The position numbers and the translations under genes are program-made. This document shows positions 5,691 to 55,193 of a stretch of DNA of 64,000 nucleotides, one piece after another; position 1 is the stretch's first letter; the number at the start of each line of letters is the position of its first letter. Below the pieces are notes generated by a model that saw nothing but the letters and a program-made list of their open reading frames with translations, was not told the DNA's origin and made no database searches. Source of the stretch: Mycolicibacter heraklionensis (lineage in GTDB: Bacteria > Actinomycetota > Actinomycetes > Mycobacteriales > Mycobacteriaceae). The stretch covers positions 20,336 to 84,335 of the forward strand of contig LZME01000023.1 of the NCBI GenBank assembly GCA_001673575.1, in the 5' to 3' direction.

Positions 5691-5716
5691 GTTTTGTGCT
5701 CGTCGCCGCCGGGTAT
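5691..5716 (+). promoter_or_regulatory. SigF-type promoter for the 5752 membrane protein
   Basis: GTTT (5691-5694), 16-base spacer, GGGTAT (5711-5716), a full match to the mycobacterial SigF consensus. It lies 36 bases upstream of the ATG at 5752. Confidence 0.65.
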
Positions 5717-5751
5717 CCGACAACGGTGATTTCGGTGATCGGAGGCGGGGG

Positions 5752-6147
5752 ATGATCATTGCCGATGACGGTGTGACGGCGGTCCGGCCGATCTTCGCCG
5801 ACGCGCAACCGCGCGCGGCAGGGGTCGCGCCGCCCGAAGCGCTGCCCCGCGATTGGACGTGGGCCAACTGGGTGCTGTCGCTGCTGACCGCACCGGCCGC
5901 CGCACTTCTCATGGCGTTCGCGCTGGCCAGGGTGTCCGGCTCCGCACTGTGCAACCGGGCGGCGTGCCCGGAGCTCAAGGTGAACGGGTCGCTGTTCGGC
6001 GTGCTCTATCACGGAGCGGCCGGCGTAGCGGCGCTCACGCTGTTCCTCGCCTTCTTCCTGGCGACGCACCGCCGCGGGATCGTGGTCTGGGCGTGCGGGT
6101 GGGCGCTGCTGTTGGCCGACTTGGCGGTTTTAGTCCTGATGTTTTGA
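5752..6147 (+). CDS. Small four-helix membrane protein with paired cysteines
   Basis: A 131-residue membrane protein of unknown function. After a 40-residue cytosolic tail it has about four hydrophobic segments; between the first two sit two cysteines in SALCNRAACPELKVNG, probably on the outer face. GGAGG lies just ahead of the ATG, so the upstream extension of the frame is ignored. It is a paralogue of the product of 22571-22918, which shares NW near helix 1, the Cys pair, NG..FG.LY.GA, and GWALL near the end. A full SigF-type promoter precedes it. Confidence 0.75.
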   Translation: MIIADDGVTAVRPIFADAQPRAAGVAPPEALPRDWTWANWVLSLLTAPAAALLMAFALARVSGSALCNRAACPELKVNGSLFGVLYHGAAGVAALTLFLAFFLATHRRGIVVWACGWALLLADLAVLVLMF

Positions 6148-6183
6148 CGGACCCAGTGGCGGATCTACAGAGGGGATCGCGAG

Positions 6184-6519
6184 ATGTCTGACCTGATTTC
6201 AATGCCCGCCGCGGTCGGGTTTGCCGCCTTGGTGCTGACTGGTGGGCAGGCAGCGGCCTCCGCCGACCCGGACACCGACCCGGTGGTCAACACCACCTGC
6301 ACTTACTCACAGGTGGTGTCGGCGATGAACGACCAGGCACCCGGAGACGCCGAGCAGTTCAACGCCACACCGGCCGAACGGTCCTGGCTGCAGAACTTTC
6401 TGGCCGCCCCGCCCGCGCAGCGCCAGCAGATCGTGGACCAAGCGCAGGGCACGCCAGATGGCACCCATTACGTTGCGCTCTTCAGTCCCTTGGCCAACGC
6501 CTGCGACAACTACTACTGA
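6184..6519 (+). CDS. Haemophore-related secreted protein
   Basis: A 111-residue exported protein with an N-terminal signal sequence ending near AAASA. The mature part (NTTCTYSQVVSAMND, FLAAPPAQRQQ, final C-D-N-Y-Y) is typical of the small alpha-helical mycobacterial haemophore-related family, of which Rv0203 is the known haem-binding member. Two cysteines can form the family disulfide. It resembles the product of 17435-17878. The haem-contacting residues of Rv0203 cannot be confirmed by eye, so haem binding is inferred from family only. It converges with the next gene with three bases between stops. Confidence 0.75.
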   Translation: MSDLISMPAAVGFAALVLTGGQAAASADPDTDPVVNTTCTYSQVVSAMNDQAPGDAEQFNATPAERSWLQNFLAAPPAQRQQIVDQAQGTPDGTHYVALFSPLANACDNYY

Positions 6520-6521
6520 GC

Positions 6522-6836
6522 TCACTCCTCGACAGTGAAGAACGAGTCGCCGTCTTCGGGACTTCCGGACACCTGCGCGCGGTGTCGACCGCCTGGCACA
6601 GCTTCGTCTGGATCGTGGTCAGGGCCGGCCGCATCGGGCTGCTCAGCCGCCAGCTTGGCGTCCAACGACTCATGTGCGGTCTCGCTGTCAGCGGCTTGCC
6701 ATTCGTCCGGTGGACTGACGGCTGCGTCGCCGTCGTCATTGCGCAGTTCGTCGGAATCGGTGGCCTCACTCGGCGGCAACGTGTCGTCCTGTGTGGTGTC
6801 GGTGGCCGCGGAATCGGAATCAGGTTGTTCGGTCAT
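6522..6836 (-). CDS. Acidic, probably disordered DUF5709-like protein
   Basis: A 104-residue, strongly acidic protein (many D, E, S, T) starting MTEQPDSDSAATD. The segment ESLDAKLAAEQPD resembles the repeat seen in mycobacterial DUF5709 proteins, whose function is unknown. It begins 14 bases after the GlnR-like regulator gene ends and is probably cotranscribed with it. The frame is open further upstream inside the regulator gene, but the composition changes at this ATG. Confidence 0.55.
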   Translation of the reverse strand: MTEQPDSDSAATDTTQDDTLPPSEATDSDELRNDDGDAAVSPPDEWQAADSETAHESLDAKLAAEQPDAAGPDHDPDEAVPGGRHRAQVSGSPEDGDSFFTVEE

Positions 6837-53634: not shown

Positions 53635-53725
53635 TGGCCCTCCTGATGGCATGTATAAGAAATGTCTTTAAGAATCTAGCTTCAGGCAGTGTAAAGCGCG
53701 ACCGCTGAACCTGTTCCAGTGCCCC

Positions 53726-54142
53726 TTACGCGGCGCGTAAATGCCGCTTGATGCGGGTCAACATGGCCGACATACCCCGTAGTCGCAGCGGGCTGATCAG
53801 TGCGGCCAGCCCGAGCTGTGACGCGAAATCCTCCGGCACGCCCAGGATGACGTCGGCCGGTTCGCCGTCGAGGCCGGCGGCCCAGATCGATGCGAAGCCG
53901 CGCGTCGTCGGCGCTTCGGGAGGCGCGCTGAAATACAGCCGCACCCGTTGCGGGTCGGCGGCATCGACATGCATAAACAACGGCGACTGGCACTCGGGTA
54001 CCGGTTCCATGGCTGATTCGGTCAGCTCTTCGGGCAGTTCGGGCAGTTCGTCGGCGAATTCGATCAGCAGCTTGAGCTTGTCCTGGCCTTCGACTTCGGC
54101 GAAGTCGGACACCACCTGCGCCAATCCCTCCGGCAGGCTCAT
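53726..54142 (-). CDS. sufE: SufE-like sulfur acceptor protein
   Basis: A 138-residue SufE-family protein, equivalent to M. tuberculosis Rv3284. The sulfur-accepting cysteine is in [13 protein letters not shown]. SufE-type proteins take persulfide sulfur from a cysteine desulfurase for Fe-S cluster assembly. The gene follows the rhodanese sseA by eight bases on the minus strand, a sulfur-relay pair. Confidence 0.9.
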
Positions 54143-54150
54143 CAGCGGAC

Positions 54151-55053
54151 TCAGCTCACCCCGGACCCTGGGGCCGGACCGGGTTCGGGCCCGTCGACGA
54201 TAGGCACGCGCACGGTGTTGCCCCACTCGGTCCAGGAACCGTCGTAGTTGCGGACGTCCTGGAGGCCGAGCAGATGGGTCAGAACGAACCAGGTGTGGCT
54301 GGAGCGTTCCCCGATGCGGCAGTAGGCGATCGGCTTGTCGTCGGGCTTGAGGAAGGCGTAGAGCGCCTCGAGCTCCTCGCGCTTGCGGAACCGGCCGGCA
54401 TCGTCGGCAGCCTTGCTCCATGGCACTGAGACCGCAGTGGGGATGTGGCCGCCGCGCAGCACACCCTCCTCCGGGTACTCCGGCATGTGGGTGCGCTCGC
54501 CGGTGTATTCCTGCGGCGAGCGCACGTCGATCAGCGGCACCTGGCCGATGTTGGCCAGCACGTCGTCCTTGTAAGCCCGGATGGGGGCGTCGTTGCGCTT
54601 GACGACGGGGTATCCGGTCGTGGTCTTCGACGGCACGTCCAGCGTGGTTTCGCGGCCCGAGGACACCCACAGGTCGCGCCCGCCGTCGAGCAGCCGCACG
54701 TCTTCGTGTCCGAACAGGGTGAACACCCACAACGCGTAGGCGGCCCACCAGTTGGACTTGTCGCCGTAGATCACCACGGTGTCGTCGCGGGAGATGCCCT
54801 TGCGGTTCATCAGGTCGGCGAACTGCTCGCCGGTGATGTAGTCGCGGACCGGGGAATCGTTGAGATCGGTGACCCAGTCGATCTTGACCGCGGTGGGAAT
54901 GTGGCCGATGTCGTAGAGCAAGACATCCTCGTCGGACTCCACCACGACGAGGCCGGGTGTGCCCAGATTTCCCGCGAGCCAGTCGGCTGTCACCAACCGT
55001 TCCGGGTGAGCGTAGGACTGCAGGGCGGGGCTGGGGTCGGCAGGCACTGGCAC
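54151..55053 (-). CDS. sseA: Thiosulfate/3-mercaptopyruvate sulfurtransferase SseA
   Basis: A 300-residue tandem-rhodanese protein. N-terminal domain: [40 protein letters not shown]-terminal domain with the active loop [11 protein letters not shown]. It matches M. tuberculosis SseA (Rv3283), which transfers sulfane sulfur. The GTG at 55053 (VPVPADPSP, corresponding to MPLPADPSP) is chosen; 43 extra codons upstream are non-homologous and run into the divergent promoter. Confidence 0.93.
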
Positions 55054-55168
55054 GAAGCCGAGCCTACCGCGTGGAGCCCCAGATCCGGGTCCTGCGGATC
55101 CGCTGACCTGTGCGCGTGCTCCGTGCCGCGGGCCCGGATGGCGAGGGTGAAAAGCCGGCGGTCGCGGC

Positions 55169-55193
55169 GTTTGAGCGGTCATCGCGCGGGTAT
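55169..55193 (+). promoter_or_regulatory. SigF-type promoter for the membrane protein at 55204
   Basis: GTTT (55169-55172), 15-base spacer, GGGTAT (55188-55193). The -10 overlaps the ATG at 55192, so translation must begin at a later codon, the GTG at 55204. Confidence 0.62.

Follow-up and report, generated by a model that had tools for sequence, protein, structure and literature searches.

A probable island of SigF-controlled units beside sigF in Mycolicibacter

The window analysed here makes up the final 64 kb of contig C23 (84,335 bases) in a Mycolicibacter heraklionensis genome of 4,718,971 bases. It carries sigF, which encodes an alternative sigma factor, and a long series of stress-related genes, many of which stand behind sequences resembling SigF promoters. 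Global sigma regulons are usually pictured as scattered over the chromosome and united by promoter sequence alone. The arrangement described below is probably a SigF regulon assembled in one place.

The window encodes both SigF and an RsbW-type anti-sigma factor. The sigF gene (9595–10383, forward strand) was identified by NCBIfam model NF005514 (SigF; 474.8 bits, cut-off 372) and is the sole SigF match in the genome at E ≤ 1e-60. Its product is 98%, 96% and 94% identical to the SigF proteins of M. icosiumassiliensis, M. sinensis and M. kumamotonensis, respectively. Since these nearest records are from Mycolicibacter, the organism belongs to the M. terrae group. The gene of the anti-SigF factor, rsbW/usfX (9161–9598, forward strand), overlaps sigF and is named from its Pfam HATPase_c_2 domain and its position, no NCBIfam match being found at 1e-10; rsbW is also present in the lhr-accA3 stretch of relatives. 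Further upstream lies usfY (8602–8913, forward strand; NCBIfam NF041247, UsfY, 128.9 bits, cut-off 100).

From the left, the gene order is a Fapy/Nei-type glycosylase, the Lhr helicase (1185–5645, reverse strand; Pfam Lhr winged-helix domains), usfY, rsbW and sigF. Past sigF, roughly 41 kb of genes with redox, stress, envelope and regulatory roles lead to a biotin carboxylase gene (51832–53634, reverse strand), which we take to be accA3 from its Pfam match and its position in relatives. A SufE-like gene, a rhodanese gene (presumably sseA), accD5, birA and purK follow. The lhr and accA3 genes form conserved left and right boundaries, and the main island, in which 48 genes were compared with the gene content of relatives, extends between sigF and accA3 (10390–51517). 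The initial annotation described promoters clustered around sigF. The clustering stands, and it lies mostly between sigF and accA3, with sigF at one end of the cluster and not in its middle.

An exact site was defined as GTTT-N15-17-GGGTA, and dinucleotide shuffles, the reversed pattern and 60 permuted motifs served as controls. The 15 exact sites listed in the initial annotation are all present where it had placed them. Each is correctly oriented and aims at a start codon 9 to 70 bases downstream, when the starts of two genes are taken as in that annotation (50074 and 55204; gene calling here puts them at 50008 and 55192). None lies inside a called gene. Naming genes by their start coordinates, forward-strand sites precede gene 5752 (5691–5715), a zinc alcohol dehydrogenase gene, 12564 (12501–12525), a DJ-1/PfpI gene, 22002 (21930–21954), a hemerythrin-domain gene, 24445 (24410–24434), a glycosyltransferase gene, 28359 (28325–28348), a DUF1942 gene that we take to be MPT63-like, 32142 (32047–32071), a thiamine-pyrophosphate enzyme gene, 33569 (33517–33540), gene 40470, which is followed by a run of GMC oxidoreductase and short-chain dehydrogenase genes (40399–40423), an F420/luciferase-like oxidoreductase gene, 50155 (50121–50144), gene 51233 (51197–51221) and, beyond accA3, a small open reading frame (ORF) at 55204–55611 (55169–55192). 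Reverse-strand sites precede a PNPOx-family gene, 10845 (10894–10917), a flavin adenine dinucleotide (FAD)-Rieske oxidoreductase gene, 12438 (12449–12472), a cutinase-family gene, 17297 (17312–17336), and a haem-oxygenase-like gene, 50074 (50084–50109). With 15 exact sites on both strands and two divergent pairs, a single operon is ruled out. The gap between site and start is 9–14 bases for eight of the 15 sites, and these promoters would be expected to yield leaderless or nearly leaderless messages.

The initial annotation proposed counting the pattern in shuffled sequence and across the genome, and both counts bear it out. Shuffled windows contain on average 0.16 exact sites (largest count, 2), compared with 15 in the window, and the density is far lower elsewhere, the window being 45-fold denser than the rest of the genome. 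The genome holds 39 exact sites in total (12 for the reversed pattern), of which 15 (38%) fall in the 1.4% of the genome that the window represents; the probability of finding at least 15 of 39 in a given 64 kb is about 1.8e-18. A sixteenth exact site starts 158 bases to the left of the window edge, before an ORF that by eye resembles a small secreted protein. When spacers of 10 to 23 bases were scanned, the excess was confined to 15–17; spacer 14 gave one site and spacers 18–20 none. Sites stand close upstream of genes far more often than by chance: within 200 bases upstream of the 73 called genes, 14 genes have an exact site and 23 have a site with at most one mismatch, whereas the permuted motifs gave means of 0.18 and 2.8 (largest counts, 2 and 9). 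This test counts 14 and not 15 exact sites because the start called at 55192 misses the fifteenth.

The claim of at least nine one-mismatch sites was borne out by nine promoter-like positions, other registers of exact sites being excluded. They include sites upstream of the GlnR-like regulator gene 6851–7543 (site 7581–7605, both on the reverse strand), the CsbD-like gene 7665–7904 (GGGAA, 7968–7992, reverse strand), the rsbW-sigF pair (GATT-N16-GGGTA, 8984–9008, forward strand), the universal stress protein (usp) gene (44413–44437, forward strand), the ChaB gene (45029–45053, forward strand) and the catalase gene katE, 46300–48426 (GGATA, 46234–46258, forward strand).

Conservation was examined for 14 of the 15 exact promoters in up to 13 Mycolicibacter sequences, giving 69 pairwise comparisons that are not independent. 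Site 55169 was left out because the ORF behind it has no match in the four relatives whose fetched stretch spans its place. Identity over the 69 pairs is 94% in the -35 box and 96% in the -10 box, compared with 65% in the spacer, 73% in the 40 bases upstream and 79% in the leader. This profile indicates that the two boxes are under strong conservation. The exact site is kept in 63 of the 69 pairs; G022 has it at all 14 promoters, and G016 at all 10 whose gene was found. Eight of the nine one-mismatch sites were compared with the same two genomes. GlnR-like, CsbD, rsbW, usp, chaB and katE genes have an upstream site with at most one mismatch in both, a box letter or the register sometimes differing, while site 46257 has a counterpart in G022 alone and site 32701 has none in G022, its gene not being found in G016. 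A one-mismatch site lies within 200 bases upstream of rsbW in 13 of 13 Mycolicibacter sequences, with varying letters and register, and upstream of the GlnR-like orphan regulator in all 12 Mycolicibacter relatives that have the gene.

For the wider comparison, 41 genomes of the genus were drawn and the glycosylase, sigF and accA3 genes were located. Nine genomes (G001, G003, G005, G008, G010, G025, G028, G032 and G033) were left out because these genes were missing or on different contigs, and 32 entered the comparison of stretches. In G018 and G015, accA3 is wholly or partly missing from the stretch, the G012 stretch falls 21 bases short, the genome sizes of relatives are rounded, and the sites of G043 were recounted on fetched DNA. 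In the three Mycolicibacter genomes of the draw, sigF lies 7–8 kb from the glycosylase gene and 33–53 kb from accA3. Where the other genomes have both genes on one contig, sigF and accA3 are 0.03–13 kb apart, and it is the lhr side that holds the variable stretch. With five additional Mycolicibacter genomes, sigF is near lhr in 8 of 8, and the sigF-accA3 gap is 9.5–53 kb in the seven with accA3 in the stretch; the two smallest gaps (9.5 and 15 kb) overlap the largest found elsewhere (G014, 13 kb).

Site counts follow the same division. The lhr-accA3 stretch contains 14, 14 and 11 exact sites in the three drawn Mycolicibacter genomes (36–41% of each genome's sites) and 0–6 (0–15%) in the 29 other mycobacteria. 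The five additional Mycolicibacter genomes, represented by fetched stretches of 35–80 kb, have 11 of 38, 19 of 43, 10 of 21, 7 of 29 and 9 of 26 of their exact sites there. Within about 10 kb of sigF, the mean number of exact sites is 7.0 at 10 Mycolicibacter loci and 1.37 at 57 others, after 13 of 80 loci shorter than 15 kb (one Mycolicibacter, twelve others) were dropped. Gene content is also clade-specific: between 11 and all 48 of the 48 island genes were found in the stretches of seven Mycolicibacter relatives, and at most 8 in the lhr-accA3 stretch of any of the 29 other genomes. In a tree of five region proteins (quick method, midpoint root), the three Mycolicibacter genomes group together (support 100) and adjoin eleven genomes with short lhr-accA3 stretches, including G017, G031 and G038 (supports 99 and 98). 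These eleven genomes, presumably slow growers, are referred to as the neighbouring, or sister, group.

Several island genes keep their promoters at other addresses. For five genes, copies were sought in 16 genomes and their 700 upstream bases inspected. The FAD-Rieske gene, found in 13 genomes, has an exact site 10–11 bases upstream in 10 and a one-mismatch site in two. Nine of these genomes place it away from the sigF stretch; of the nine copies, six have an exact site 11 bases upstream and eight a site of at most one mismatch. G004 and G009 carry it inside their own sigF stretch, with an exact site in both. Outside Mycolicibacter, a site with at most one mismatch stands within 130 bases of the catalase gene in four of five copies (exact in two), a one-mismatch site stands 63–86 bases upstream of the MPT63-like gene in three of seven (G017, G031 and G038; 70–78 bases within Mycolicibacter), and, of eight copies of the thiamine-pyrophosphate enzyme gene, one has an exact site and another a one-mismatch site close by. 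An ancestral divergent pair of FAD-Rieske and dehydrogenase genes was considered as well. The two lie near each other in G000, G022 and G034 alone among the 13 loci, and in G034 the dehydrogenase gene is on the same strand as the FAD-Rieske gene and without an exact site; adjacency in three loci did not settle the direction of change.

Whole clusters recur away from sigF. In G017, two clusters with 11 and 8 exact sites (C13:190–246 kb and C3:1–48 kb) lie away from sigF, one of them more than 200 kb along the contig that carries sigF and the other on another contig. Together they hold 22 of the 48 island genes, compared with one in G017's own sigF stretch, and their genes are interleaved in the gene order of the window. 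Exact sites precede the G017 counterparts of the zinc dehydrogenase, hemerythrin, glycosyltransferase, haem-oxygenase-like and luciferase-like genes, the last three at nearly the same distance from the start as in the window. A matching part of the first cluster is also found away from sigF, with 11 genes in G038 and 9 in G031, and with 5 exact sites in each. Judging from these sequences, island genes change order and address but tend to remain in one another's company, several of them with their promoters.

In addition to the RsbW encoded next to sigF, the island itself encodes five proteins with partner-switching domains, all on the reverse strand and assigned by Pfam: a STAS-domain protein resembling anti-sigma antagonists (27643–27954), a protein with STAS and a weak HATPase_c_2 match (30347–31129), an antagonist-like protein with MEDS and STAS_2 domains, the latter below the curated cut-off (38028–38858), an RsbW-like partner-switching component with MEDS and HATPase_c_2 domains (38855–39811) and a second STAS-domain antagonist-like protein (48436–48873). 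Two ANTAR regulators (Pfam) are also present.

Taken together, genome and shuffle tests, conservation confined to the boxes and the same genes standing behind SigF-type sites elsewhere in relatives support the physical SigF regulon proposed in the initial annotation. We consider it quite probable that SigF reads the exact sites, as well as most of the one-mismatch ones, as promoters and that separate units lie side by side in a regulon island. These units may have been brought together, or retained, next to sigF in the ancestor of Mycolicibacter. SigF dependence of the window genes, and autoregulation of rsbW-sigF through the site at 8984–9008, are predicted from sequence; the M. smegmatis sigF deletion data described below favour such dependence and show partial clustering in that species. 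Under stress, STAS-type antagonists would pull RsbW off SigF by partner switching, a mechanism established in M. smegmatis, and the freed SigF would read the island promoters together with its own operon through the site before rsbW. As many genes or short runs own a promoter, they would be transcribed as separate SigF units and could be moved or lost alone, which would make the island modular. Such units may have gathered because of their closeness to the sigma gene, because they share a chromosome domain or because the spot is permissive. That clusters recur at other addresses points to some benefit of lying together. A broader proposal, which we advance tentatively, is that SigF-promoter genes repeatedly assemble in islands whose membership outlasts order and address, and that the Mycolicibacter islands merged beside sigF, which would imply selection for closeness.

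Several observations weigh against this interpretation or narrow it. Elsewhere in the genome there are about 12–13 promoter-like exact sites, and some island genes (e.g., 13744–15504 and 18393–20308) lack a promoter-like site of their own, whether exact or one-mismatch. At least one site is present in the sigF stretch of 26 of the 29 other genomes, with 2.6- to 42-fold enrichment; because sites near sigF are enriched in most relatives too, Mycolicibacter differs in number more than in kind. For part of the clade the case is less strong, since some Mycolicibacter islands are smaller; that of G042 has 7 of 29 sites, with a control count of 14. The genes missing from the G042 island were not found beside the 19 fetched of its 22 other exact sites, which argues that gain and loss shape the island besides movement. 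Promoter retention is also uneven: within the 700 bases inspected, the FAD-Rieske gene of G034 and all five copies of the GMC gene outside Mycolicibacter have no site, four of the seven best MPT63-like copies outside Mycolicibacter have no near site, and six of eight thiamine-pyrophosphate enzyme genes, which at 45–54% identity may not be true counterparts, have none or distant ones.

Among the 23 exact sites outside contig C23, eight are within called genes, 13 are intergenic with a start at most 200 bases downstream (one before a low-complexity, doubtful ORF) and two are intergenic without such a start. The window and its edge therefore hold about 16 of some 28–29 promoter-like exact sites, a majority and not all. 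An island containing the whole strong SigF regulon was ruled out, since promoter-like exact sites exist outside the contig. Genes at the 23 outside sites were not found in other Mycolicibacter islands (above 45% identity, half coverage) except for cutinase and cyclopropane-synthase paralogues. Beside the 19 sites of G042, the window-like genes are a cutinase paralogue (44–50%) and a weak universal stress protein match (35%). As an account of the G042 island, movement in and out within Mycolicibacter was set aside; loss or gain fits, and dispersal does not.

The same distribution can be read in other ways. Mycolicibacter may have kept an old layout with an ancestral island at sigF, the neighbouring group having moved the island away. 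We regard this as a serious possibility, if somewhat short of an even chance. Some distant relatives hold part of the island in their lhr-accA3 stretches (8 of 48 genes in G020 and G021, 4 in G011, 3 in G004 and G034), and SigF-dependent genes lie beside sigF in M. smegmatis (PMC4694148). However, at least 40 of the 48 genes are missing from the stretch of every other genome, and the short sigF-accA3 gap and lhr-side variable stretch found elsewhere differ from the 33–53 kb gap of the drawn Mycolicibacter genomes. Slightly less plausible to us is that the lhr-accA3 interval is a tolerant spot that easily takes non-essential stress genes, closeness to sigF being meaningless. The interval from glycosylase to accA3, inclusive, indeed ranges from 11 to 88 kb in the 32 genomes with differing contents, and Mycolicibacter islands vary from 11 to 48 of the 48 genes. 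Yet long intervals may be poor in sites (G035, 88 kb, 0; G011, 68 kb, 4; G014, 61 kb, 3), so an insertion spot alone does not bring SigF genes, and three neighbouring-group genomes have many of the island genes clustered at other places.

Acquisition of the region as a horizontally transferred genomic island that brought its own promoters is unlikely. Its patchy content among Mycolicibacter genomes would fit such an origin, but the window has no transfer RNA (tRNA) gene, Pfam scans covering called genes between 5752 and 51517 revealed no integrase (one 68-residue ORF at 36109 was outside the scan), and the G+C content of the island (66.2%) is close to that of the window (66.9%). On these grounds a recognisable mobile genomic island was rejected, attachment repeats not having been searched. 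Moreover, the FAD-Rieske protein is 69–70% identical to its counterparts in three neighbouring-group genomes and 56–65% identical to others, as for vertical descent. That the consensus reflects chance in G+C-rich DNA, or the motif of another factor, is very improbable. Several genomes do carry it near control frequency (G015, 49 vs 55; G026, 41 vs 38), but shuffles, permuted motifs, the genome background and conservation of the boxes alone contradict this explanation, and the consensus matches the published SigF consensus (PMC4694148).

A regulon island beside sigF in Mycolicibacter has partial parallels in known systems. In M. smegmatis, RsbW1 holds SigF and is counteracted by antagonists such as RsfB, and inhibition of respiration induces the regulon (PMC7693655). 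Expression of 137 genes is reduced in both growth phases in the M. smegmatis sigF deletion mutant (Table 1 of PMC4694148); by our own count from that table, 28 of them, with operon genes counted singly, fall in MSMEG_1758–1807. This region surrounds rsbW-sigF and resembles the window in the type of sigma/anti-sigma pair, the consensus and the presence of SigF-dependent genes beside sigF (PMC4694148, PMC7693655). Product descriptions shared with the window include FAD oxidoreductase and dehydrogenase, hemerythrin, MPT63, catalase, arginine decarboxylase and ChaB. In contrast, many genes with matching descriptions (MSMEG_0266/0267, 0670/0671, 5617, 6212 and 6232) have distant locus numbers in M. 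smegmatis, while their apparent counterparts, matched by description only, are inside the island of the window. The M. tuberculosis usfX-sigF operon with its SigF-dependent promoter (cited in PMC7693655) is like the rsbW/usfX-sigF pair and the site before it here. In the neighbouring-group genomes examined here, by contrast, only short distances separate lhr, sigF and accA3, and there is no island of this kind. In E. coli, chromosomal distances between regulators and targets are reported to be reduced as a tendency (PMC8674286), akin to the window. The present case differs in that one stretch holds many separate units of a stress sigma factor, and many of these units are clustered elsewhere in relatives.

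The open-access literature we searched, subscription papers not being covered, includes PMC4694148, PMC7693655, PMC7390352, PMC4295536 and PMC10950880, and we found in it no statement on an island of the SigF regulon beside sigF or on a genus-wide comparison. The window would present a known regulon in an unusual, clade-specific physical form, SigF dependence near sigF having already been published for M. smegmatis in the sources above. Because many of the same promoter-gene units occur beside sigF, clustered elsewhere or scattered, it can be asked whether closeness to the regulator matters in the stress response. The sites also provide a catalogue of probable SigF targets in the M. terrae group.

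A few further observations concern individual relatives. Beyond accA3, at about 4–6 kb, G042, G043 and G044 carry a gene of approximately 300 residues with, by eye, a LigD-type polymerase domain and an exact SigF site 10 bases upstream; the window differs in having another, small ORF behind site 55169. G026, whose genome is 99% complete, has no SigF match at 1e-60 and keeps an rsbW-like gene, its exact sites being as few relative to the control as given above. This pattern is suggestive at most, as G015, G023 and G029 have SigF and likewise show little or no excess of sites. At about 27.5–29.7 kb of the joined stretch, the G041 island contains two genes that by eye resemble those of a serine recombinase and a transposon-associated protein. 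The 25-mer GTTTACGGCGTGGACTACCAGGGTA is unchanged in most genomes with listed sites and reaches four copies in one of them (G041); it is perhaps a conserved coding stretch that mimics the consensus.

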